Of a DNA stretch of 64,000 bases, positions 50,830 to 63,385 are shown one piece after another. Both the position numbers and the translations under genes were made by a program. This DNA is from Paracoccus ravus (lineage in GTDB: Bacteria; Pseudomonadota; Alphaproteobacteria; Rhodobacterales; Rhodobacteraceae). Every line of letters begins with the position of its first letter. The first letter of the stretch is position 1. The stretch is taken from assembly GCF_004522175.1 (NCBI RefSeq), contig NZ_SDEB01000011.1, positions 1-64,000 on the forward strand, in the 5' to 3' direction. The notes below the pieces were generated by a model. The model did no database searches, was not told where the DNA came from, and saw only the letters and a program-made list of their open reading frames with translations.

Positions 50830-51021
50830 TTGTTCATCATCCGGTTTGCCTTGGCTCTGTCGGTCCTCGCCGCCGCCGCGGTGGGGTACGGGGTTTTGAC
50901 GGGCGCGGGTTGGTGGGCAATCTGTCTGGGCGTGGTCGGGATGGTGGTTTGTGCCCAGCTTTTGGTGGTGATCTATGTCGCCCTTCGGGCCTATGTCACC
51001 GGCAAGCGGCCCCTCAGGTGA
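50830..51021 (+). CDS. Small two-helix membrane protein, ExoX-like exopolysaccharide repressor candidate
   Basis: 63 residues from a TTG at 50830 with AAGGGAG upstream. Two hydrophobic helices (about 5-24 and 27-51) and a basic end (TGKRPLR). The topology and sequence style resemble ExoX of Sinorhizobium, a small inner-membrane protein that lowers exopolysaccharide output by acting against the ExoY sugar transferase; an ExoY-like gene lies 5.7 kb away. Its last eight bases overlap the convergent ABC exporter gene. The assignment is tentative. Confidence 0.55.
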   Translation: MFIIRFALALSVLAAAAVGYGVLTGAGWWAICLGVVGMVVCAQLLVVIYVALRAYVTGKRPLR

Positions 51022-52795
51022 TCGAAACGGCGGGGGATATCTGAGCCTCGCGCCTCGGCCCGTCAGGCGACTTCCCAATGGCCCGCCCGTTTTCCATGAC
51101 ATAGACGGCATCCGCGATGGCGACCAGGGCGGGGCGATGGGTGATCACCAGAATGGTCGTCTTGCCCCGCAGGCTCTGGACGGTTCTGACCAGGCTTTCT
51201 TCGTTCTGCAAATCCAATGCGCTGGTCGCCTCGTCCAGGACCAGCAGATCCGGATTGCGCATCAATCCTCGGGCAAAGGCGATCCGCTGCCTTTCTCCGC
51301 CCGAAAGGAGGCCTCCCTGATCGCCGACGCCGTGATCGAGCCCCCCGGGCAGGCGAGACACGAAATCCGCGGCCGCAGCCCGCAATGCGCGTTGCATGGT
51401 TTCCTCGGCCTCGGGATCCGAACCGGGCATGGCCAAGGCTAGATTGGCGCGGATGCTGGCATTCATCAGCAGCGGGTCCTGCGTGATATAGGCGGCGCGG
51501 TCCCGCCAGGATCGCAGTTGCGACGCCGCAAGCGGAACACCATCGACCAGAACCTTCCCATGCTGCGGACGGATCAGGCCCATGACGATATCCGCGACCG
51601 TGCTCTTGCCGGCACCGGACGGACCGGTCAGCACGGTGATCTGTCCGGCGCGCATCGTCAGCGACATTCGATCCAGCGTGTCGCGCGGTGCATCGGGGAA
51701 ACGCCAGGTCACATTGCACAAAGAAATCTCGCTGAGGGGCCGGGCCGCCGGCTCTTCGACGGATGGATCGGGATCACGAGAGCAGGAAAGTTCCGCTTGC
51801 AGGCGGCGGACCGCGTCCCAGGCGGGCAGGTCCACGAGAATTTGCTGGAGCGAGGCCTGAACGCCTGAAAACCGTGGCACGGCGCGCAGGAACAGCAAGA
51901 GCAGGACCGCGATCCTGGCCAGATCCATCTGTGCCCAGGACCGGGCCACCCAGATGAACAGCGCGGCCCCGGTCGCGGCCGCAAGCTGAAAAAGGCCCGA
52001 GCCGACCAGAGATTTGCGGACGTAGCTCAGAGAGCCGTCTCTTGTCTGGCGCAGCATCTCGCCAAGAAGAGACTGATAGCGCGGCTCGAGATTCATGCTT
52101 CGGGCGAGCTTCATCGCGCGCGTGAACTCTTTGATCGTCTGGCTTAGTCGCAGACGCTGCGATTGCAGGCTTGCGCCATAGGCCGTGGCGGCGCGGCGAT
52201 AAGGGCGCAAAAGCGTCAATGCCAAACCGCCTATGGCGAGGCAGAGCAGGGTCATCAAAGGTGATATCATCAGGCCGAGGCCAAGATAGATTACCAGCCC
52301 GACGACGCTCTGCAGGATGTTGAGCAGGCTATAGGCCGCCACATGAACGCGATCGATATCTTCGGTCAGCGCATGTTCCAGCCGCGACCGGGGAATGCGG
52401 ATGACCTGCGACCAGTCAGCCGCCGCGACATCCGAAAACAGGCCCAGTCGCAAACGGTCGCTGAAGTCATAGACCAACCGGGCGAGATACACGCCCTTGA
52501 GACGCCCGAAGAGGACCAGCCCCCCGGTCAGGCATATGATCGCCAAGAGTAGCATGGAAAGCGGGGCCGAGTCGGGGAAGCCCTGCGGAAGTGGCAGGCC
52601 CGTCAGATCGACGACATCCCTGCCCTCGCTGACCAGGTGTATGACAGGCAGAAAGAGCAGCAGGGATAGCCCCTCGGTGAGCGTCCCCAGCACAAGGAAC
52701 AATGTCGCGATGCCCAAGCGGCGCGGATGAAGACCGATGATCGCCCGCAGAAAGGACAAGCCGCTCTTGGCGGGAGATGGGGTCGTCTCCCTCAC
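51014..52795 (-). CDS. Lasso peptide ABC exporter (McjD-like)
   Basis: 593 residues; GTG start overlapping the kinase stop. An N-terminal six-helix exporter domain (residues about 20-310) fused to an ATPase: Walker A GPSGAGKST (391-399), signature LSGGE (497-501), Walker B LLVLDEATSALD (517-528) and a switch His in ITHRPA. This is the half-size exporter type that expels mature lasso peptides and gives self-immunity, like McjD. As the last gene of A-B1-B2-C-K-D it most likely exports the product. A polysaccharide or lipid role is possible but the coupling argues against it. Confidence 0.82.
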   Translation of the reverse strand: MRETTPSPAKSGLSFLRAIIGLHPRRLGIATLFLVLGTLTEGLSLLLFLPVIHLVSEGRDVVDLTGLPLPQGFPDSAPLSMLLLAIICLTGGLVLFGRLKGVYLARLVYDFSDRLRLGLFSDVAAADWSQVIRIPRSRLEHALTEDIDRVHVAAYSLLNILQSVVGLVIYLGLGLMISPLMTLLCLAIGGLALTLLRPYRRAATAYGASLQSQRLRLSQTIKEFTRAMKLARSMNLEPRYQSLLGEMLRQTRDGSLSYVRKSLVGSGLFQLAAATGAALFIWVARSWAQMDLARIAVLLLLFLRAVPRFSGVQASLQQILVDLPAWDAVRRLQAELSCSRDPDPSVEEPAARPLSEISLCNVTWRFPDAPRDTLDRMSLTMRAGQITVLTGPSGAGKSTVADIVMGLIRPQHGKVLVDGVPLAASQLRSWRDRAAYITQDPLLMNASIRANLALAMPGSDPEAEETMQRALRAAAADFVSRLPGGLDHGVGDQGGLLSGGERQRIAFARGLMRNPDLLVLDEATSALDLQNEESLVRTVQSLRGKTTILVITHRPALVAIADAVYVMENGRAIGKSPDGPRREAQISPAVSIT

Positions 52796-53703
52796 GCTGC
52801 CCCCCGCAAATCCGCTGAAATGGCCCGGGCGATGTCATCTGCGAACTCCAGCCCCTCGCTGAGTCGCAAATGGCGCGGGGGGCAAAGGCGCGTGATATGG
52901 GCCGCCGCGCGAAGATGCTCTGCCGCCGCCCGCCCCTGCAAGAGGGCATTCCCGAAACGCGCGGCATAGGAAAATCGCATCGTGACCTGCAAGGCCGCGC
53001 TGGCCGCGATTCCACCGACCTCGCTCGTGCGGCCAAGGGGCAATCTTTCAAGGACATAGAGCCTTGATGCGGGCAATGCCTGCTCGGCGAGCGTCGCCGG
53101 AGGCAGGCGGATGCGTGTCTTGTCGATGAGATGATGGACCGTTCCACGCGCCATGGAGCCGGTCGGCGCGAATGCCGCCGCGGCCTGAGACAGCTTCAGC
53201 TGGGCAAATCCCGGCAGGATGCGGCCCGCCGGGTCGATCGCGACGATATCATCTGCAAGAATGCGCGCGCCGCGCGCGATCAGGGCCGAGGCAGTCGTGG
53301 ATTTTCCGGTTCCCTTGTCCGCCAGAAAGGCGATGGCATGACCGCGATAGAGCACCGCGCTGGCATGAAGCGCAAAGCAGCCGCGACGCCGCAGCACCTC
53401 GGCCAGGACCGGACCCAATAGCGGAAATGCGAGCAGTTCCGCAGCCGCGCCTGCGGCCGGCGAGATCGTGACGCTGCGCCCGTCTGCCGAGACGTGGAAT
53501 GCCCCGACCTCTGGCCAGTAGAAATGAGATTCCCGCGATGAAAACCGCATGCGTGGCCGCGTATCGGGATCGACCGTTCCAGAGGGCCGAAGCGTGATCG
53601 ACAGATCCGGCGCACGGGTCCGGTCGGCGGGCGCAAGCTCGGGAAGTGCCAGGTCAGAACGGATGCAAAGCCCGTAAGCGGCATAGCAATGCGCAGCAGT
53701 CAT
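52792..53703 (-). CDS. HPr kinase-like protein, putative lasso peptide kinase
   Basis: 303 residues. The C-terminal half carries the HPr-kinase-type core: ALHASAVLYRGHAIAFL, P-loop ADKGTGKST (128-136), and ARILADDIVAID (acidic pair at 151-152). The N-terminal half (1-100) is variable, as in lasso kinases. Homologues in kinase-containing lasso clusters (paeninodin and Thermobacillus types) phosphorylate the C-terminal Ser of the precursor, and the precursor here ends in Ser. The gene is coupled by 4-base overlaps to the cyclase before and the exporter after it. Confidence 0.8.
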   Translation of the reverse strand: MTAAHCYAAYGLCIRSDLALPELAPADRTRAPDLSITLRPSGTVDPDTRPRMRFSSRESHFYWPEVGAFHVSADGRSVTISPAAGAAAELLAFPLLGPVLAEVLRRRGCFALHASAVLYRGHAIAFLADKGTGKSTTASALIARGARILADDIVAIDPAGRILPGFAQLKLSQAAAAFAPTGSMARGTVHHLIDKTRIRLPPATLAEQALPASRLYVLERLPLGRTSEVGGIAASAALQVTMRFSYAARFGNALLQGRAAAEHLRAAAHITRLCPPRHLRLSEGLEFADDIARAISADLRGAA

Positions 53704-55535
53704 GTCGTCTCCATGATGGCGGGTTTGCTGGGGGCGGCCTCGCGCGCTTCGAGCCAGTCCGCCAGGGACAGGGCACGGCTGAGCCGAAAGGCGGTGCGCG
53801 CGTCCGGCACCGGATTCCGCAGCCGTTGGCCGTCAGCCCGAAGCCTGTCGATATTCACCCATCCCTGGAGTGATGCGGGATTGGCGAGCATGCGGGCAAC
53901 GCGTTTTTCGCGCGTGAGACATAGCCAGAAATGGGGCAGAAAATTCGTCTTTCCCGTCCGCTGCCGAATCTTTTCGGGCAGGATCCCGCGCATCGCCTCG
54001 CGCAGCAGGCTGCGAGGCTGGCCGCCATGGATGCGCGCATGATCCGGCTGAGCGGCGCAGATCTCGATGACGCGATGATCGTAGAAAGGGTAATGCGGCG
54101 TCACCCCGGCATCCCGCGCCGCGGCATCGAGAATCTCGAGCGCGGTTGCCGTCAGCGGTGCTCCGAGCAGCGCCACCTGATCGCGGATGGCGAGGGGAAG
54201 GCGGCTCTCGGCCATGCCCGCCCGATAGGCCCTTACCCTTTCGACAAGATCGGTTGCCGCGGCCAGGTGCGGATCGACCAGCGCACGCCAGGCCATGCGG
54301 TCTTCGACAGGCCCTGCGACGAATTGCGTGAGCTTGCGCAAGATCCGGCTGTCGCCATGGGTCGCGATCAGCTGGCCGCAATCGGTCAGAGGCGATGTCC
54401 CCACAAAACGCGCATGTTTCCATGTCAGTGCCAAGGCTTGCGCCCAGTGCCCTTGCCGCGCGATCTGTCCGATTGTCCAGGGTCCCCCATCGATGACCTC
54501 GTCACCGCCATGCCCGTCAATGATCTCGCTGCATCCCAGAGCCCGGGCCGCAGCATAAAGCTGGCGGCTGTCGGGCAGGCCCGGCGCAAAGACCGGCTGA
54601 CCCTGGTCATGGGGCGGAAGATCGAATGCTGCTCGTAAATCCACCGGCTTCAACCGCCCGCAGCCCTGAGACAGGACCATGTCGATATAGCCGCCCTCGT
54701 CCATCGCCGGGTCGTCATAGCGCAAGGACAAGGCGGGACGGCTCTGCCCCTGCCGGACCGACAGCAAGGCAAGCGAACTGGAATCCAACCCGCCGCTGAG
54801 TAAGACCGCCGTCGGGCGCTCCATGCAGCGCTGCGCCGTGGCATGGGCCAGCGCCTCGCGCAGCGCCTCGGAGGCATCACGTTCACAGGGCGTGATCCGG
54901 CTGCCGAGATCATACCATTTTTCCGGCGCGACGCGCCGCCCTTCTGCGAACCGCATCACCTGTCCCGGCTCCAGACGATGGATGCCGGAATGCGCCGTGC
55001 GGCTGGCATCCGTTTCCTGCCCGGCCAGAAAATCCGCGACCCATTCCGCGCTGATTTCCGGCCGCTCGTCCAGACCCGCAAGCACTGCGGAAATCGTCGA
55101 GGCAATGACAATCCTGTCTTTGGTCGCTGCATAGAGGATCGGACGAATGCCCATGCGGTCGCGCACGACCCAAAGTGCATTTGAGCGCCGGTCATGCAGG
55201 CAAAAGGCGAAACTGCCGCAGAAATCCTGCAAGGCCGCCGCACCGCGTTGAAGCCAGCGCGCCATGATCAGCTGCTCGGGACTGTCAGCATCCGCCGTCC
55301 CGACCAAGTCCCGCAATTGGGCCAGATCGGTGAGTCCGAGGTCGCCGCACAGCGTCAAGGGGCCGCGCCGGGCGATCTTACCGCCTTCTGCTTGCATGAA
55401 GCAGCGCCCGTCCTCGGCAAGCAGCGCTCCCGCAGGGCCGTCACGACGGCGCATATCAGAGCGGATGGCGGATAATTCATGCGACAGGATCGAGACCGGG
55501 CCGCCAACGCTGGAAAGAACGGCAAAGCGGCTCAT
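53700..55535 (-). CDS. Lasso cyclase, asparagine-synthetase-like (McjC-like, protein C)
   Basis: 611 residues in the asparagine synthetase B fold. The N terminus starts MSRFAVLS, lacking the Cys2 nucleophile of true glutamine amidotransferases, as lasso cyclases do. The synthetase domain has the ATP-pyrophosphatase loop SGGLDSS (247-253) and IIDGHGGDEVIDGG. Lasso C proteins adenylate the side-chain carboxylate of Asp or Glu at core position 7-9 and close the macrolactam with the core N terminus. Coupled to B2 by ATGA at 55532-55535. Confidence 0.88.
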   Translation of the reverse strand: MSRFAVLSSVGGPVSILSHELSAIRSDMRRRDGPAGALLAEDGRCFMQAEGGKIARRGPLTLCGDLGLTDLAQLRDLVGTADADSPEQLIMARWLQRGAAALQDFCGSFAFCLHDRRSNALWVVRDRMGIRPILYAATKDRIVIASTISAVLAGLDERPEISAEWVADFLAGQETDASRTAHSGIHRLEPGQVMRFAEGRRVAPEKWYDLGSRITPCERDASEALREALAHATAQRCMERPTAVLLSGGLDSSSLALLSVRQGQSRPALSLRYDDPAMDEGGYIDMVLSQGCGRLKPVDLRAAFDLPPHDQGQPVFAPGLPDSRQLYAAARALGCSEIIDGHGGDEVIDGGPWTIGQIARQGHWAQALALTWKHARFVGTSPLTDCGQLIATHGDSRILRKLTQFVAGPVEDRMAWRALVDPHLAAATDLVERVRAYRAGMAESRLPLAIRDQVALLGAPLTATALEILDAAARDAGVTPHYPFYDHRVIEICAAQPDHARIHGGQPRSLLREAMRGILPEKIRQRTGKTNFLPHFWLCLTREKRVARMLANPASLQGWVNIDRLRADGQRLRNPVPDARTAFRLSRALSLADWLEAREAAPSKPAIMETT

Positions 55536-55975
55536 CTTGCGCTGCCCGACGCCGGAAGGGGGTAGTCATGCAACATCACGTGGGAATGATATTGCGCCGG
55601 CGTGCCCCCCAAGACGATCGTATCTCCGGACATGAGCCAGGCATGGGGCCGAGGGTCCGCCGCCGCACTGGGGCCGCGTGGCACCGAAATCCGGATGGTC
55701 GTCGCATAGCCCTGCCGCGCCAAGAGCCATTGGCCGACCGTCGCCTGCGTCAGGCAAGTCGCTTTCGGGAAATGGCGGGAGATCGCCGCCACGGCCCATG
55801 CCGTCTCGGAAAGCACATGATCGGGCGCCCTATCCCTCGCGCGGTTGCATTCTACCAGCTGGCGCAGCCGATGGCCGCGACGACGATCCAGATGCCATCG
55901 CACCAGGAGCAGCGCGACGAGCGCTTGCGCAAACAGTCCGACATGCCGCCACGAGAGCGAAGTGATCCGCCGCAT
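55532..55975 (-). CDS. Lasso leader peptidase, transglutaminase-like (B2 protein)
   Basis: 147 residues from the ATG at 55975, four bases after the B1 stop; the longer frame runs through B1. A short helical N-terminal part is followed by the transglutaminase-like protease core: Cys74 in ATCLTQATVGQWLLARQGY, His111 in PHAWLMSGDTIVLGG and a nearby Asp118, the expected Cys-His-Asp set. B2 proteins cut the leader after the Thr-Xaa pair and hand the core to the cyclase. Here the recognition domain is a separate protein, B1. Confidence 0.88.
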   Translation of the reverse strand: MRRITSLSWRHVGLFAQALVALLLVRWHLDRRRGHRLRQLVECNRARDRAPDHVLSETAWAVAAISRHFPKATCLTQATVGQWLLARQGYATTIRISVPRGPSAAADPRPHAWLMSGDTIVLGGTPAQYHSHVMLHDYPLPASGSAR

Positions 55976-55979
55976 CACG

Positions 55980-56240
55980 CTAGACCTGCCTGACCAGACC
56001 GTTCTGGCGCATCTCGGCAACCAGCGCCAAGACATCGTTGCTGCAATCGGCGGCGCAAACTTCATAATTCGAGAGAGTAAATTCGATCAGGTCGTCGATC
56101 GATCTTGGCTCTTCCAGATTTTTCCAGATCTCTGCCCCGATTCCGTCCAGCCCAAAATAAAGATTTGATTCCAGGTTGAGAATGACAAAGCCGTCTTCGA
56201 CCTCGCAGGCGACACAATCAGGAGAGATTTCGTAAAGCAT
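55980..56240 (-). CDS. PqqD-like leader-binding protein (lasso B1, RRE)
   Basis: 86 residues. A PqqD-family RiPP recognition element: a three-stranded sheet (YEISPDCVACEVEDGFVILNLESNLYFGLDGIGAEIW) followed by helices ending EMRQNGLVRQV. B1 proteins bind the YxxPxL part of the leader and present the precursor to B2. GGTGGTGA precedes the start. It lies 51 nt after the precursor stop, with a strong hairpin between, and four bases before B2. Confidence 0.88.
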   Translation of the reverse strand: MLYEISPDCVACEVEDGFVILNLESNLYFGLDGIGAEIWKNLEEPRSIDDLIEFTLSNYEVCAADCSNDVLALVAEMRQNGLVRQV

Positions 56241-56258
56241 GACATCACCACCATATTG

Positions 56259-56281
56259 GGCGCGGCAAGTCCCGCCGCGCC
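56259..56281. other. Hairpin between lasso precursor and B1 genes
   Basis: GGCGCGGC and GCCGCGCC form a perfect 8-bp GC stem with a 7-nt loop. It starts 11 nt after the precursor stop and ends 18 nt before B1. No T run follows, so it is more likely a partial terminator or an mRNA 3'-end protector that raises precursor over enzymes. Confidence 0.7.
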
Positions 56282-56291
56282 CGTTTGTTTT

Positions 56292-56429
56292 TCAGGAAAA
56301 GGTGAGATGCGAAATCGGGGTGCCCGTGTCAAAGGCCCGGTCCAGGACGGTCCCCGTGGACGCGCCCTGAGTCATCTTCTCAAGCGAGCCATGAAGTTTA
56401 AGCTCAGGCTTTTGGTATATTTTTTTCAT
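56292..56429 (-). CDS. Lasso peptide precursor (A gene)
   Basis: 45 codons from an ATG at 56429 with TGGATGG upstream, directly before B1. The leader fits the lasso rule exactly: Tyr5, Pro8, Leu10 (YQKPEL), Gly14, Thr20 at the minus-2 position and Gly22 as core residue 1. The predicted leader is residues 1-21. The core is residues 22-45 (24 residues), starting GASTGTVLD and ending SHLTFS. Asp30 is core position 9, so the ring would be Gly1-Asp9. The tail is 15 residues with Phe12, His20 and Phe23 as possible steric locks. The C-terminal residue is Ser, the target of the cluster's kinase. Hand-computed monoisotopic mass of the cyclised core is about 2432.2 Da. Confidence 0.92.
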   Translation of the reverse strand: MKKIYQKPELKLHGSLEKMTQGASTGTVLDRAFDTGTPISHLTFS

Positions 56430-56749: not shown

Positions 56750-57466
56750 ATGATGCCCTTTGACATTGAAAACACCATGCCGCGGCAAAGAACCGCCGCT
56801 TTGCCATTCGGATCAGACGGAGCGGAATTGGCCTCTGTCGGGGCAGCCGGTCCGCTTGGCGGGCGCCGCAAGCGGTTTCTGGATATCGCCTTCGTGCTGG
56901 CCTGCCTGCCCTTCGTCGCAATCCTGATGCTGGGGCTTTCCCTGCTGATCAAGGCAAGCAGCCCCGGTCCGGTCTTTTACGGTCACAGACGTGTCGGTTT
57001 TGGCGGCGCCGAGTTTCGATGCTGGAAATTCCGCACCATGGTCACCAATGGGGACGTGGTGCTCGAGCAGCATTTCCAGCGCAATCCGGCGGATCGGATC
57101 CTCTGGAAATCCGAGCGCAAGCTCGCCGACGATCCCCGGGTGACGCCGATCGGTGCGGTGCTGCGCAAGCTGAGCCTCGACGAATTGCCCCAGCTTCTGA
57201 ATATTCTGGCCGGTGACATGAGCATCGTCGGCCCCCGCCCGGTCGTGCGCGAAGAGCTCGACAACTATGGCCAGGCCGCACCGTTTTATCTCGCGACCCG
57301 ACCCGGACTGACGGGCCTGTGGCAAATCAGCGGACGAAGCGACACAAGCTACGCCGAGCGGGTGAGGCTGGATCGGAAATACGCCTCGGGCTGGAGCATC
57401 ATCGGCGACCTGGGGATCATCCTGCGCACGGTGCCGGCGCTGCTGACCGCCCGCGGGGCGCGCTAG
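56750..57466 (+). CDS. Undecaprenyl-phosphate sugar phosphotransferase, ExoY-like
   Basis: 238 residues (adjacent ATGs at 56750 and 56753; AGAGGA upstream). Bacterial sugar transferase domain: one membrane helix (about 43-67), then KASSPGPVFYGHRRVGFGGAEFRCWKFRTM, LRKLSLDELPQLLNILAGDMSIVGPRP and RPGLTGLWQISGRSD. It moves hexose 1-phosphate to undecaprenyl phosphate, the first step of exopolysaccharide repeat-unit assembly. The length and single membrane helix match ExoY rather than the larger WbaP type. Its last 50 bases overlap the convergent polymerase gene. Confidence 0.88.
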   Translation: MMPFDIENTMPRQRTAALPFGSDGAELASVGAAGPLGGRRKRFLDIAFVLACLPFVAILMLGLSLLIKASSPGPVFYGHRRVGFGGAEFRCWKFRTMVTNGDVVLEQHFQRNPADRILWKSERKLADDPRVTPIGAVLRKLSLDELPQLLNILAGDMSIVGPRPVVREELDNYGQAAPFYLATRPGLTGLWQISGRSDTSYAERVRLDRKYASGWSIIGDLGIILRTVPALLTARGAR

Positions 57467-58700
57467 CCCGGCAGGCCCTCCGGAACGCGCGGGCATAACA
57501 GATCGCGGCAATCGTCACGACGCCCGTCAGATCGAATTGAAAGAAGAATACCACTTCGACCCCCATCGAGATCGTCTGGCGGACCATGAACAAGGCAAAG
57601 AAAACCGCTGCTGCCGAATGCGACCGAAACACCCAATACAGCGCGGCCAGAGCACCGGAGAAAAACGCGACCGCCTGCAGCGTGGCCCCGACAAGCCCGA
57701 TTTCGACTGCGTTGGAAATCATCGTGTTGTGGAAATTGAACCCGGCCCGTGAAGCGATCCCGAATCGCGCCCAGAGATCCTCGGCCAAGGGGTTGCCGTG
57801 GACCCAGAATGCTTGGAACCCGGTCCCGATCAGAGGATGTCTTGCAATTTCCTCAAAGGCGACGAGCCATAGTTCCGTGCGCCCGGTCAGCGTCACGTCC
57901 TTGCCCGTCAGGGACAGGAATGCTGTTGCGAAACTGTCTGCCTCGGATGAAAGGGCAAGGCCGACGGAAGCAAGCAGAACGAGCGTCAGGCTGGCCAGAA
58001 CCAGACGCGAGGTCGCGTCGATCCGTCGCAAGAGCATCAGGGGAATGAGAAAGGCGGTCGCAACGATCACGGCCACGAGCGCCCCCGCCGATTTGCCCAT
58101 CACGAGTAATGCAAGCCCCATTCCACTTCCGATTAGCGCGACTGCCCGCCAGAACCGATTTTCCGCGCGGCCGACAGCAACAGCCAAGGAGACAAGGAAA
58201 AACGCCCCCATCGTCATCGCGAGCGCATTCTTGCTGCCATAGATGCCTAGAAACCCCATCCCCCCCTCCCGGCTGCGACCGGAGGCGAGGCTCAGCGCGG
58301 CCGCAAGAAGCAGCACAAGCAGAAGGATACGGACGAATGTGCCGGGAGGAATGCGCTGGCAGATGGTGATTGCGACAAGAAATGTCAGGGTCAGTTGAAG
58401 CCCGTATCGGAGCGACAATTCCGGGTAGTCGGACCAGGTGAACGAGCCAAGGCACCACGCCGCCAGGGCGACCAGCACCCCTTCCTGCCGCAGCCCCCGG
58501 ATGCATGCATCCGGGCCCGTGACGACCAGCGCTGCGCCAGCGATCAGAAAGATCAGGGCCCCCAGCGACCCCATGACCGGCTGCAGCCCCAGGCCGAGAA
58601 TGCTTAGAAACGCCAACAGGGCGGGAAGTGAAAAGGGAACCGCCCAAAGCCCTGGATTGCGCACGGCATGTGGCGAGGCTCGGTGCTCCAGGCTCAGCAT
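57417..58700 (-). CDS. O-antigen ligase/polymerase (Wzy-like) membrane protein
   Basis: 427 residues with ten or eleven hydrophobic segments and AGGAGCC before the ATG. The periplasmic loop with TLTGRTELWLVAFEEIARHPLIGTGFQAFWVHG and AGFNFHNTMISNAVEIGLVG is the Wzy_C / O-antigen ligase signature, including the conserved Arg and His. It probably polymerises exopolysaccharide repeats. It runs against the other exo-type genes, and its 3' end overlaps the ExoY-like gene by 50 bases on the opposite strand. Confidence 0.85.
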   Translation of the reverse strand: MLSLEHRASPHAVRNPGLWAVPFSLPALLAFLSILGLGLQPVMGSLGALIFLIAGAALVVTGPDACIRGLRQEGVLVALAAWCLGSFTWSDYPELSLRYGLQLTLTFLVAITICQRIPPGTFVRILLLVLLLAAALSLASGRSREGGMGFLGIYGSKNALAMTMGAFFLVSLAVAVGRAENRFWRAVALIGSGMGLALLVMGKSAGALVAVIVATAFLIPLMLLRRIDATSRLVLASLTLVLLASVGLALSSEADSFATAFLSLTGKDVTLTGRTELWLVAFEEIARHPLIGTGFQAFWVHGNPLAEDLWARFGIASRAGFNFHNTMISNAVEIGLVGATLQAVAFFSGALAALYWVFRSHSAAAVFFALFMVRQTISMGVEVVFFFQFDLTGVVTIAAICYARAFRRACRASAPRGRSAAPAPCAG

Positions 58701-58921: not shown

Positions 58922-60040
58922 ATGGAAAATGCGAACAACCCTTCGCGCCAACCATTGATCAGCGTCATCATGGCCAATTACCAGGCTGCACGATGGATCG
59001 GAGCGGCCATGCGTTCGGTTCTTGCGCAAAGCTATCGCAATCTTGAGTTGATCGTTTGTGACGATGCCTCGGGCGATGACAGCGTCGCGATCGCTCGGGC
59101 CATTGCAGCGCGCGACGACCGGGTCCGCGTTCTGCCGCAGCCGCAGAATGCGGGGCCGGCGGCCGCCCGCAACAGCGCGATCGAGGTCGCCCGTGGCGAA
59201 TGGATCGCGATCGTTGACAGCGACGATCTGATTCATCCGTCTCGACTGGCCCGGCTGTGGCATCTCGCCATGGCACGAGACGCGGATCTGGTGGCCGATG
59301 ACATGGTCTGTTTCGGATCGGTCTCAGCCCCCCGGACGATTCTGCAGCCCTTGCAGCCGGCAATGCCCTTCCGTCTGGATGCGGCGCAATTTCTGCTGTC
59401 AAACAGTGGCGATGCGCGGGTACCCGGCTACGGTTACCTTAAGCCGATGATCTCGCGGCGGGTCTTGGACGCAAGACGATATGATCCGAGCTTGCGGATC
59501 GGCGAGGATTTCGCCCTTGTCATGCGCCTGCTGCACGATGGTGCCCGCTACATCGTCACCCCTGACCCGCTTTATGCGTATCGCAGGCATGATGGCTCGA
59601 TTTCGCATCGCATGACGGTGAAGTACATGGAGGCGATCCTGACCGCGCATCGCGCGATGCCCCCCATGCGCGACGCGCCCGGTCGGCTTGCGGCGCAAAG
59701 GGTGCAGCAGCATCTCTCGACCGCCTTGCGCTATGAACGGCTCGTCGCGGCGATCAAGTCGCGCCATTTCGGCCGCGCACTTCGCGGCATGCTCGACCCC
59801 GCGATGATTGGTTGCCTGGGCGAAAGCCTGGCCGACCGGCACCGGCGCCGACGGCCGCAGAAACCGCAAGAGCATCGGGAACGGTCGGGAGAACTTCCAG
59901 ACCTCCCCCCGGTCGAAGGCAGATGGCCGCGCCCACCCGCCGATGATGCGGCGCACCTGGCCGCGATGGCTGCCGTCTCGGACTTCGCGCTGCCTGAGAC
60001 GGCGCCCGATTGGGCAATCTGGTTGCGAAAGCTGGCCTGA
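58922..60040 (+). CDS. GT-A glycosyltransferase family 2, ExoO-like
   Basis: 372 residues. N-terminal GT2 fold: LISVIMANYQAARWIGAAMRSVLAQSYRNLELIVCDDASGDDS, GPAAARNSAIEVARGEWIAIVDSDDLIHPSRL (DSDD as the metal/nucleotide DXD element near residue 98) and GEDFALVMRLLHDGARY with the catalytic-base ED. The arrangement resembles ExoO/ExoU of the succinoglycan pathway. The last 100 residues are Pro/Arg-rich and not conserved. It probably adds one sugar to the lipid-linked repeat unit. Confidence 0.85.
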   Translation: MENANNPSRQPLISVIMANYQAARWIGAAMRSVLAQSYRNLELIVCDDASGDDSVAIARAIAARDDRVRVLPQPQNAGPAAARNSAIEVARGEWIAIVDSDDLIHPSRLARLWHLAMARDADLVADDMVCFGSVSAPRTILQPLQPAMPFRLDAAQFLLSNSGDARVPGYGYLKPMISRRVLDARRYDPSLRIGEDFALVMRLLHDGARYIVTPDPLYAYRRHDGSISHRMTVKYMEAILTAHRAMPPMRDAPGRLAAQRVQQHLSTALRYERLVAAIKSRHFGRALRGMLDPAMIGCLGESLADRHRRRRPQKPQEHRERSGELPDLPPVEGRWPRPPADDAAHLAAMAAVSDFALPETAPDWAIWLRKLA

Positions 60041-60092: not shown

Positions 60093-61157
60093 ATGATCCA
60101 GATCCCCCCGGAATTGCGCCAGGATTGCACCGCCGAAATTCTTGCCCTGCTGGGTCAGAACCCGCTCTCTGAGTCCGACCCGATCCGGCTCTTCCACGTC
60201 GCGCGTTGCAACAAGTTGCTGCATCTGCTGCCGATCAATGACCCCGCGCTTCGCCCCATCCGGGCCGATCTGCTGCGGGCGCAGATTGCCACCGCCCAGA
60301 TGAACCGCAGGGCCATTGACCTCGCTTGCGAGACGTCGCATGCGCTTGCCGCTCTTGGCGTGCGGCATCTGGTGCTGAAGGGGCCATTCCAACAGATCCG
60401 GCTGCATGGCACCGGGCATCTTCGGCCTTCGGGCGATGTCGATCTTTATGTTTCACCCCGCCAGCGCAAGGCGGCCGCTGAAGCGATCCTTGCCGCAGGC
60501 TTTGCGGTGGTCGAGCCAGAAAAGGCGCGATGGTGGCTCGCCTTTATGGGCGAGCAGCATTTCCGTCGTGCCAAGGATGGTGCGATGATCGATTTGCACC
60601 ATCGCCTGCATCAATTCGGCCTGCCGGGCTGGCGGCACGCAGAAGCGATACTGGATCGGGCGGAACCCGTCATGCCCGAGGTCATTCCGGTCGCCGGAGA
60701 TGCGGATGGCTGTCTGCTGCTGGCGATTTCGATCGCGAAATCCCTTTTGGCGAAAGAGCCCTGCGGCTGGGCTGTCCGCGACCTTGCAATCTGGCTTGGA
60801 AAGCTGAGCGCAGAAGATCTGGCCCGGCTTTGGCATATCGCGAAAGAAGCCGGGCAGAGGCGCGTTCTGGAATTGTCGTTGCGGCTTGTCGACGCGGTGA
60901 CGGCCGCTAGTCCGCGGGTCGAGACCGGATCCGGCTTGCGCGGTCTGAACGCGTCGGATCTGCGGGACCTCGTCTACCAGCCGTGGCGCCTTTCGCCCGA
61001 AACCTCGCCGCGTCGCCGGCAACTATTGACCTCGCTCGGGCGGGGGCGCCCCGGCTCCGTTATGGCGCAGGCCGTCCTTTCGGGGCTTTCGCCATTCGTT
61101 CTGGGCTGGCAGACGGAAGGGGCCCGCACGCTATTCAGGCGCGCGCGCGACCGATAG
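60093..61157 (+). CDS. Nucleotidyltransferase-fold protein (NTP_transf_5 type)
   Basis: 354 residues from MIQIPPELRQ. The fold-defining residues are HLVLKGPFQQIRLHGTG (KG at 96-97) and RPSGDVDLYV (Asp115 and Asp117), the GS/GD-x-D-x-D pattern of DNA polymerase beta-type nucleotidyltransferases, then MIDLHHRLHQFGLPGW. Proteins of this family occur in lasso clusters (the pseudomycoidin cluster encodes one with a kinase) and in polysaccharide loci. It is 52 nt after a glycosyltransferase and 3.7 kb from the lasso precursor. Which pathway it serves is open. Confidence 0.75.
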   Translation: MIQIPPELRQDCTAEILALLGQNPLSESDPIRLFHVARCNKLLHLLPINDPALRPIRADLLRAQIATAQMNRRAIDLACETSHALAALGVRHLVLKGPFQQIRLHGTGHLRPSGDVDLYVSPRQRKAAAEAILAAGFAVVEPEKARWWLAFMGEQHFRRAKDGAMIDLHHRLHQFGLPGWRHAEAILDRAEPVMPEVIPVAGDADGCLLLAISIAKSLLAKEPCGWAVRDLAIWLGKLSAEDLARLWHIAKEAGQRRVLELSLRLVDAVTAASPRVETGSGLRGLNASDLRDLVYQPWRLSPETSPRRRQLLTSLGRGRPGSVMAQAVLSGLSPFVLGWQTEGARTLFRRARDR

Positions 61158-61194: not shown

Positions 61195-62190
61195 TCAGCC
61201 CACTCGGTCCAGAAGCTCCAGATAGCGCCGCGCGCTTTTTTCTGGGCTGAGGTTGTCGGCGACAAACTGGCGCGGCCTGTATGAGTTCATCCCGGCCCAA
61301 AACCTGTCGAAGCGCTGTTCAAGGTTGTCTTCGCGAAAGGTCGCTCCGCACCGCTCGTCGAAATAGGGCACAGAGGAGACCCGTAGACCGACGGGGGCGA
61401 ACTGCCGCTCTGCCGGGTCAACCAGCTTGCCCTCGTCCCATGCAAAGATCGGGATGCCCGAGGCCATGGCCTCTTGATAAGCAAGTCCCTGTGTCTCATG
61501 CGCGCTCAGAAATGCCATGGCCCGGACCGATCGCAGCGCCATGCGGAATTCGTCAATGTGATGTCGGCCATAGCGAATACAGCGGAATGTCAGGCCGCGC
61601 GCAGTCAGATGCGCGATCAGCGCATCCGCAACCCGCGGCACCATGTTGTCGCGATGCCAATGGATCTTGTCATAGATCAGCAGGTCATGGCTCTTGTTCG
61701 CGCCCCCGACATCTGGCCAGTCCCGCAGGATGATCGGTGCAAAGAGCGGCTCGACACGCGATCCCAAAGCTGGCCTCCAGATCTTGCAGACCCATTCGGA
61801 TGGCAGCGTGAACAAGCGGATATTGTTGCCGGCCGTGACCATCTCAAGCTCGTGTGGCGGCGGAACATAGCCCGGTCCGAACAAGGCGGGATTGGACAGG
61901 CGGACCCGGTCATAGACGCCCGGGAAGCCGGAAATTCCAACTGGCATGGCCGGGTTGCGCCTGGCGTGTGAGAAGTCGTTCAGCCGGACGTCCACGCCCA
62001 AGGCTTCTAGCCCGTAACGAAGGTTCCGCAATGCGGTGAAGAACCCCGTATGGGGCTGACGGCGCCGCAGGCTCCGATAGCCACTGCGCGCCAAGAACCG
62101 CAATCCGGACTGCATCCGCCCGAAAGGACGATCGATCGCATGAATTTCGTAGCCATGGTAGAAAAAATCAATCCGCCGCCGATGAGCCAT
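61195..62190 (-). CDS. GT-B-like glycosyltransferase
   Basis: 331 residues. The C-terminal half has the family 1/4-type donor site: YGRHHIDEFRMALRSVRAMAFLSAHETQGLAYQEAMASGIPIFAWDEGKLV (the E-x7-E-like AHETQGLAYQEAMA). The N-terminal half includes TGFFTALRNLRYGLEALGVDVRLNDFS. It is on the minus strand among plus-strand glycosyltransferases. The sugar specificity cannot be told. About 180 bases upstream are AT-rich and hold the promoters for this gene and the next. Confidence 0.78.
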   Translation of the reverse strand: MAHRRRIDFFYHGYEIHAIDRPFGRMQSGLRFLARSGYRSLRRRQPHTGFFTALRNLRYGLEALGVDVRLNDFSHARRNPAMPVGISGFPGVYDRVRLSNPALFGPGYVPPPHELEMVTAGNNIRLFTLPSEWVCKIWRPALGSRVEPLFAPIILRDWPDVGGANKSHDLLIYDKIHWHRDNMVPRVADALIAHLTARGLTFRCIRYGRHHIDEFRMALRSVRAMAFLSAHETQGLAYQEAMASGIPIFAWDEGKLVDPAERQFAPVGLRVSSVPYFDERCGATFREDNLEQRFDRFWAGMNSYRPRQFVADNLSPEKSARRYLELLDRVG

Positions 62191-62371: not shown

Positions 62372-63385
62372 ATGGAAAAGGTTTCGGTCATTATACCGGC
62401 TTATAATGCCTTCCGCACAATTGGGCAGGCAGTCAGTTCGGCTTTGCTACAGCCCGAGGTCGCCGAGGTCGTGGTGGTGGATGATGCCTCGACCGACGAT
62501 ACCGCAGCGGCGGCCTGGCGGGCAGATGATGCCAGCGGTCGGCTCAAGGTGCTCCGTCTTGAAAGCAATGGCGGCCCCGCCCTTGCACGCAACAAGGCGA
62601 TCGCAGCCTCTTCGGCCCCTTGGATCGCGATTCTGGATTCGGACGACATGTTCCTGCCCGCGCGCTTCACGACCCTCTTCGCAGCAGGTCCCTTCGATCT
62701 GGCGGCCGACAACATCGCCTTGATCGCCGATCAACCCGCGAACCGCAGGGCGCAACTGGCGATTCCCCAACTCCCGGCATGCGCAAAAGAGCTTGCACTG
62801 ACGCAGTTCATTGCGGGGAACCTGACGCAAGGGGGCATGGGGCGCAACGAAACCGGCCTACTCAAACCCTTGATACGGCGAGATTTACTTCAGCGCACCG
62901 GGCTGAGCTATGACGAAGATCTGCGGCTTGGAGAAGATTTTATCCTCTATGTCCGCCTGATGGCGCGCGGGGCTCGTTTCATCACGATCAATTCCTGTGG
63001 CTACGTGGCATTTCAACGTGCCGACTCGCTCAGCGCCCGGCATCGCACTGACGATCTCCGCACCTTCAGCGAGGCCAGCGCGTGTATTTTAAGGACCGAG
63101 CGGATCCCCCCAGCCGCTCGAAAGATGCTGGTCCGCCAGCAACGATTGACCCGCGACAAATACCACCATCGGCTCTTTCTGGATCGCAAGGCAGAGGTTG
63201 GCCTTTTGGGCGCAGCGCGTGAAACCGTCGGATCCGCAGACCGCTTCTGGGCGGTATTTCGGCTCACCTTGCGGGACAAATTCATGGCCCTGAGAAAGCA
63301 TCTACGCCCGAATGCGCTAGCCCATGAGCATTCTGGCATCAGGCTGTTGATGAATATTAGAAACACGACCGACTTGAAAAATTAA
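62372..63385 (+). CDS. GT-A glycosyltransferase family 2, ExoO-like
   Basis: 337 residues. GT2 fold: VSVIIPAYNAFRTIGQAVSSALLQPEVAEVVVVDDASTDDT, GGPALARNKAIAASSAPWIAILDSDDMFLPARF (DSDD near residue 93) and LRLGEDFILYVRLMARGARF. It is a diverged relative of the glycosyltransferase at 58922, with the same ExoO-type layout. It probably acts in the same exopolysaccharide repeat unit. The region after it (63386-63522) is non-coding. Confidence 0.85.
   Translation: MEKVSVIIPAYNAFRTIGQAVSSALLQPEVAEVVVVDDASTDDTAAAAWRADDASGRLKVLRLESNGGPALARNKAIAASSAPWIAILDSDDMFLPARFTTLFAAGPFDLAADNIALIADQPANRRAQLAIPQLPACAKELALTQFIAGNLTQGGMGRNETGLLKPLIRRDLLQRTGLSYDEDLRLGEDFILYVRLMARGARFITINSCGYVAFQRADSLSARHRTDDLRTFSEASACILRTERIPPAARKMLVRQQRLTRDKYHHRLFLDRKAEVGLLGAARETVGSADRFWAVFRLTLRDKFMALRKHLRPNALAHEHSGIRLLMNIRNTTDLKN

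Follow-up and report, generated by a model that had tools for sequence, protein, structure and literature searches.

Lasso peptide clusters carrying an HPr-kinase-like gene have been described in different bacteria. According to two reviews (PMC9266682, PMC8498205), the published kinases phosphorylate the linear precursor at its last Ser, and the nucleotidyltransferase PsmN adds hexoses at the phospho-Ser; SyanK is presented there as a proteobacterial lasso kinase. In this work, a stretch of 64,000 nucleotides from Paracoccus ravus (contig NZ_SDEB01000011.1, positions 1 to 64,000, hereafter the window) was analyzed, which harbors a six-gene lasso cluster (A-B1-B2-C-K-D) with a kinase gene (K) and, apart from it, a gene encoding an NTP_transf_5 (PF14907) nucleotidyltransferase, referred to as N. 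We regard it as rather probable that the product is a 24-residue lasso peptide, likely phosphorylated at its C-terminal Ser and then likely phosphoglycosylated by N, and that an exopolysaccharide locus hosts the cluster as an optional module.

The paeninodin cluster of Paenibacillus contains the same set of A, B1, B2, C, K and D genes, and its kinase (PadeK) is described as targeting the terminal Ser of the precursor; however, the core, the phylum and the gene order are different, and in a Paenibacillus relative (L208) the order is N-C-A-K-B1-B2-D (A having been picked by eye). Pseudomycoidin, from Bacillus pseudomycoides, has both a kinase (PsmK) and a nucleotidyltransferase (PsmN), and its product is described as bearing phosphate and hexose on the terminal Ser; PsmN is encoded within its cluster, whereas here N is encoded on the opposite strand to A, at a distance of 3.7 kb. 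SyanA/SyanK of Sphingobium yanoikuyae, going by the review description only, resemble the present system in being proteobacterial and in having an HPr-kinase homologue and a C-terminal Ser.

A surface-polysaccharide setting has been reported in Bacilli, where paeninodin-like and LPP clusters with an HprK-like kinase and an NTP transferase often occur in capsule loci (Nat Commun 2026, PMC13381572). These clusters share with the window the HprK-like kinase, the RRE, the NTP transferase, an MsbA-like exporter and the setting itself, but they belong to Bacillota, and that text makes no mention of Proteobacteria or Pseudomonadota; the LPP core set given there includes a signal-peptidase-like enzyme, with no cyclase listed. 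The present family differs from the Bacilli clusters in its gene order and in its separate N. Genes for an HPr kinase and a nucleotidyltransferase are also reported in lasso clusters of rumen Firmicutes (PMC7533575); in a halotolerance table for Erythrobacteraceae, genes for lasso B2, nucleotidyltransferase, PqqD and asparagine synthase appear, and the passages concerned do not interpret them as a lasso system (PMC10040529); the benenodin-type cluster of a Sphingomonas, with its isopeptidase, is of a different type (PMC11006600). Among the papers listed by literature searches, judged on titles and the beginnings of abstracts and covering the subscription literature thinly, which leaves absence unproven, none deals with this family in Paracoccus or Mesorhizobium or with lasso clusters in alphaproteobacterial polysaccharide loci. 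The present family shows the association with surface polysaccharide in Alphaproteobacteria; the new elements are the recurrent site and the joint presence or absence of N.

Structure of the cluster and of its precursor

The six genes are located on the minus strand between positions 51014 and 56429, in the order A-B1-B2-C-K-D; the stop codon of B1 is separated by 4 nucleotides from the ATG of B2, and overlaps of 4 nucleotides exist at B2/C, C/K and K/D. The coordinates, once re-read, agree with the original prediction on all these points, and gene families, order and neighbors bear out its claim of a complete kinase-containing lasso cluster embedded in an exopolysaccharide locus. Since the same order recurs on one strand in most related loci (see below), and since the Mesorhizobium-type precursors look to be under purifying selection, the arrangement appears to be more than the outcome of chance.

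Gene A (56292..56429, minus strand) encodes a precursor of 45 amino acids with the leader pattern Y5..P8.L10...G14.....T20, which includes the lasso leader signature YxxPxL...T. The family pattern predicts cleavage after residue 21, giving a putative core of 24 residues, GASTGTVLDRAFDTGTPISHLTFS, in which a ring would be closed by a Gly1-Asp9 amide and the terminal residue is Ser45; Asp9 is an acidic residue falling within core positions 7-9, where the lasso ring residue is sought. The predicted monoisotopic mass of the cyclised core is 2432.197, to which a phosphate would add 79.966 and each hexose 162.053.

By itself, A gave weak lasso-leader matches in the family scans, all below the cut-off, and it was therefore tested by comparison. 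A single-sequence search, which needs shared five-residue words, returned only the window's own protein, so that a profile was used, built from ten precursors of related loci; in these ten, the leader Y, P, L, G, E and T and the core Gly1, Gly5, Asp9 and last Ser are invariant. The profile retrieved 396 proteins at E up to 0.01, several of those listed already bearing names such as lasso RiPP family leader peptide-containing protein or putative RiPP precursor. The earlier statement that the product is not a described lasso peptide thus holds for the exact core, and has to be given up for the family. Among the 120 matches listed of the 396, own precursor included, core Gly1 and Asp9 occur in 120/120, a core length of 24 in 118, a last Ser likewise in 118, and the ending LTFS in 96. 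The Mesorhizobium-type precursors (52 distinct sequences) have a ratio of nonsynonymous to synonymous polymorphism (pN/pS) of 0.134 overall, the leader having 0.029 and the core 0.253, and look to be under purifying selection.

A precursor was detected in 78 of 80 related loci, 76 ending in Ser and the others in Thr; the script used required an acidic ring residue, so the ring counts there are partly selected. The Thr-ending precursors belong to Cognatishimia and Salipiger (L072 7220-7366, L085 7111-7257), in loci where K is present; in L072, the ring Asp would fall at residue 10. A different kinase-bearing locus type (L055 8746-9280) carries three tandem precursors, all ending in Ser.

The identities originally assigned to the other proteins (PqqD-like RRE, leader peptidase, cyclase, HPr-kinase-like protein, ABC exporter) agree with the family scans, and only the catalytic Asp of the peptidase has to be withdrawn. 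B1 (55980..56240, minus strand, 86 amino acids) is a PqqD protein (Pfam, 60.7 bits), which against the PDB finds the lasso RREs TbiB1 (E 5e-9) and TfuB1 (E 2e-7). B2 (55532..55975, minus strand, 147 amino acids, ATG start at 55975) is transglutaminase-like, matching Transglut_core3 and the NCBIfam lasso B2 protein family (51.5 bits, cut-off 33); against solved structures it gave no match at E up to 0.1. A Cys-His-Asp triad defines McjB-type B2, and we take the Asp of McjB to sit 12 positions after the His. Cys74 and His111 are invariant across nine aligned B2 proteins, whereas position His+12 is Gly in 86 of 87 proteins, the window's B2 included, and Glu in one (a few genomes being counted twice). 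Since Gly is also found there in the Bacillota proteins of L208 and L209 (a paeninodin family peptide is annotated next to the L209 protein), Asp is not a defining feature of the kinase-bearing type. Asp does occur at His+12 in four loci lacking K (L171, L172, L173 and L175), and the remaining scorable K-less B2 loci have Gly.

The cyclase C (53700..55535, minus strand, 611 amino acids) is an Asn_synthase protein (102.5 bits) with an intact SGGLDSS motif and, as had been noted, without Cys2, position 2 being Ser. K (52792..53703, minus strand, 303 amino acids) matches Hpr_kinase_C with 24.3 bits, short of the curated cut-off of 33.3; when 37 K proteins are combined into a profile, HPr kinase is retrieved from the PDB with E 1.6e-10. 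The residues H113, K134, D151 and D152 of K are invariant in these 37 aligned kinases, one from Paenibacillus included, and the set is present in 91/91 kinases (some genomes being counted twice). His-Lys-Asp-Asp are reported as essential in lasso kinases (PMC9266682), and in our reading K carries that same set. D (51014..52795, minus strand, 593 amino acids, GTG start) is an ABC transporter according to the family scans. Antiphage defense parts were considered and discarded, C, K, B2 and N having no PADLOC match at E 1e-3.

A stem-loop of 10 bp (56258..56282, minus strand, -22.6 kcal/mol, z -2.6 against shuffles) lies between A and B1; no T run is found 3' of it on the minus strand, and one follows on the plus strand. 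The stretch after A folds into stems in 11 relatives too (no shuffle control there). It may be a processing or attenuation element, which could raise the level of the precursor over that of the enzymes. The promoter/terminator scan stayed near shuffle level (3 found against a mean of 1.5; 5 found against a mean of 4.8).

Nucleotidyltransferase N and distribution of the module

The original prediction ended the cluster at A and for this reason missed N (60093..61157, plus strand, 354 amino acids), which is located beside a glycosyltransferase gene. Its residues Lys96-Gly97 and D115xD117 correspond to a Lys-Gly and an Asp-x-Asp that are invariant in the alignment; against solved structures, N gave no match at E up to 1. 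Members of PF14907 are also present in a Paracoccus plasmid locus and in the Paenibacillus kinase-lasso locus. By analogy with PsmN, as presented in reviews, we propose N as a likely seventh gene, acting on the phosphorylated lasso peptide.

Contigs were scanned with a kinase alignment, which gave 184 pattern matches, 142 of them confirmed; the best 80 loci were kept, scored with profiles built in-house from the clade, and given 18 labels from the record names, not all of which are genera. The order A-B1-B2-C-K-D on one strand was found in 77/80 loci and under 16/18 labels, the three exceptions being two short contigs (L089, L130) and a locus with K alone (L065). This recurrence rules out the rarity of the gene combination as it had been stated, and SyanK is a published proteobacterial example; what stands is a patchy occurrence per genome, 7 of the 394 genomes of the family, the own one among them, having a C match at E 1e-30 and 9 of the 125 genus genomes having K. 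N is present in 75/80 loci, under 17/18 labels, and adjoins A divergently in 69/80 (among profiled genes). Regarding the five loci without it, two (L064 and L066, corresponding to G551, and G1045 with the same precursor) have N further along the contig, L065 is a remnant, and L121 and L130 are short. One 20-kb stretch (L188) contains three kinase, two B2 and three cyclase matches, which suggests stacked clusters.

A sugar transferase was detected in 70/80 loci and Wzy in 69/80. Four loci with thin profile matches (L103, L119, L127, L012) were subjected to a Pfam scan, and their 43 pooled neighboring proteins comprise polysaccharide genes, i.e., glycosyltransferases, Wzz, GH16, a polysaccharide synthesis protein and sulfotransferases. 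The polysaccharide setting is shared by Paracoccus, Thioclava, Palleronia, Mesorhizobium and others. As a control, 37 B2 stretches, each at most 20 kb long and none from the own locus, were examined with the same profiles (the lasso B2 family occurring in 33/385 genomes of the class, own included); a sugar transferase was found in 1/37 and Wzy in 0/37. In the class-wide B2 stretches, N is present in 12/21 with K and in 0/16 without K (Fisher 2e-4); when the K-less stretches are restricted to those with a C match, N is found in 0/9 (p 0.004; the K group was not likewise restricted, and the nine were counted by hand).

Within the genus sample of 125 genomes, K was searched at E 1e-20 and N at E 1e-10, the latter being found in 8. 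Wzy orthologues occur in 16 genomes below E 1e-100, with six more between 3e-21 and 2e-25, and orthologues of a family 2 glycosyltransferase (GT2; E 1e-40) in the same 16. The full A-B1-B2-C-K-D cluster was read in eight genomes (the window, L045 and L260-L265), all with N, which shares a contig with K in 8/8. Among the 16 exopolysaccharide genomes, N is thus present in 8/8 with the lasso cluster and in 0/8 of the others (Fisher 1.6e-4, uncorrected for shared ancestry); seven of the latter are without K and one has K alone. In this last genome (G1116, whose contig matches L065; L065 10004-10930 / L257), K is flanked by the sugar transferase and a conserved small open reading frame (ORF), A, B1, B2, C and D are missing at the K site, and no C (E 1e-10) and no N were found genome-wide. 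In four K-less loci (L254, L255, L258, L259), the sugar transferase and the small ORF are neighbors with no lasso gene between them; no sugar transferase match was obtained in the L252 and L256 stretches, and no small ORF match in that of L253. The cluster is thus an optional module at a recurrent site of this locus. N, placed elsewhere in the locus, shares the presence or absence of the lasso cluster within this one genus.

The exopolysaccharide neighborhood

The genes surrounding the cluster are predicted to form an exopolysaccharide locus. On one side, a small membrane-like ORF (50830..51021, plus strand, 63 amino acids, no Pfam family above cut-off) abuts D and has the same place in Paracoccus relatives; the Wzc-like gene, by contrast, lies on the far side, at contig position 66.5-68.9 kb. 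In Paracoccus loci, this ORF adjoins D or Wzc also where the lasso cluster is absent. On the A side, family scans identified a WbaP-type sugar transferase (Bac_transf, 56750..57466, plus strand), a Wzy_C/O-antigen-ligase family protein (57417..58700, minus strand) and a GT2 (58922..60040, plus strand); N is followed by a weak group 1 glycosyltransferase match below the cut-off (61195..62190, minus strand) and a further GT2 (62372..63385, plus strand). With 4 Bac_transf genes in the 4.2 Mb of the own genome, we estimate at about 2% the chance of one lying within 10 kb. Some ORFs at about 69.6-71.1 kb (G000 contig C3; L008 9615-11149), transposase-looking by eye, lie at the far edge of the polysaccharide locus.

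The plasmid unnamed5 of Paracoccus sp. MC1862 (41,778 bases) carries the whole lasso cluster and N among polysaccharide genes, i.e., GT2, GH16, O-antigen ligase, sugar transferase, a GNVR/Wzz protein, several glycosyltransferases and sugar-nucleotide genes; its precursor is annotated as a hypothetical protein.

Proposed product and competing readings

On the basis of these data, B1 would bind the leader and K would phosphorylate the linear precursor at its last Ser, as is described for PadeK and SyanK; B2 would then cleave after residue 21 and C would form the Gly1-Asp9 amide around the tail. N may attach one or more hexoses to the phosphate, following the precedent of PsmN, and D would export the product, which might have its site of action on the cell surface or within the sugar matrix. 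The product is read as phosphorylated, and likely phosphoglycosylated, because of the review data on the kinases and PsmN and because N is a PF14907 protein like the Paenibacillus enzyme, with the Lys-Gly and Asp-x-Asp residues.

Several observations weigh against this proposal. N is outside the A-D operon in this genome, the step assigned to it is drawn from PsmN as told in reviews and likened by description only, and one review leaves open whether PsmN is a glycosyltransferase. Two of the 78 locus precursors end in Thr, and two of the 120 listed profile matches are without a terminal Ser. The locus counts are dominated by Mesorhizobium (55/80), related genomes not being independent, and the sugar transferase was found under 10/18 labels. 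The profiles built from the clade may miss distant polysaccharide genes in the control, in which some stretches end at contig ends. In G1046, a genome with the lasso cluster, the GT2 match is far from the cluster. Finally, seven genomes have the exopolysaccharide genes without the lasso cluster and another has them with K alone; the locus can thus persist in the absence of the peptide.

The position of N outside the operon, 3.7 kb from A and beside a glycosyltransferase, would fit a peptide that is phosphorylated only, with N serving polysaccharide synthesis and leaving the peptide untouched. We consider this unlikely, since N is absent from all eight genus genomes that have Wzy and GT2 but not the full lasso cluster, as well as from all the K-less B2 stretches of the class sample, and since a PF14907 member sits in the Paenibacillus lasso cluster. 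A somewhat stronger competitor, still on the unlikely side, is an ordinary antimicrobial lasso peptide riding in a mobile surface-polysaccharide locus, the neighborhood having no functional meaning. The patchy distribution of K in the genus and the plasmid copy would agree with it, as would the general knowledge that surface-polysaccharide loci are often exchanged; but the same setting recurs from Paracoccus to Mesorhizobium, and the nearly fixed core length and ring, with the LTFS end prevailing among the precursors listed, are unlike what is generally known of diversifying bacteriocins.

An unthreaded or linear peptide, with phosphorylation as the main act, seems very improbable. It is suggested by L048 (8548-10653), where A, B1, B2 and K are kept and the precursor has a terminal Ser, with no acidic residue at core 7-9; no cyclase match was found in the 20-kb locus or in the genome (E 1e-10), an empty search that alone says little. 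Against it, the window's C is intact with its SGGLDSS motif, Asp9 is universal among the listed precursors, and leader, RRE and B2 are of lasso-system types. We also hold it improbable, if slightly less so, that the phospho-Ser receives a sugar from N and that the peptide is covalently joined to the exopolysaccharide, priming or capping it, in a sort of lasso-decorated matrix; the peptide would then be a covalent component of the surface sugar, a principle that would have emerged in, or spread through, both Bacilli and Alphaproteobacteria.

As for the role of phosphorylated lasso peptides, PMC13381572 only speculates on biofilm. The phosphoglycosylated lasso peptide proposed here is a nearly fixed, 24-residue predicted product of an optional module that belongs to one polysaccharide locus in a single genus. 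Natural genomes with the cluster, without it, or with K alone thus allow what the peptide does to be studied in a matched comparison. For the nucleotidyltransferase family, whose role is unproved, a prediction can now be tested in a second phylum, and the system makes it possible to ask why such peptides travel with surface sugars.

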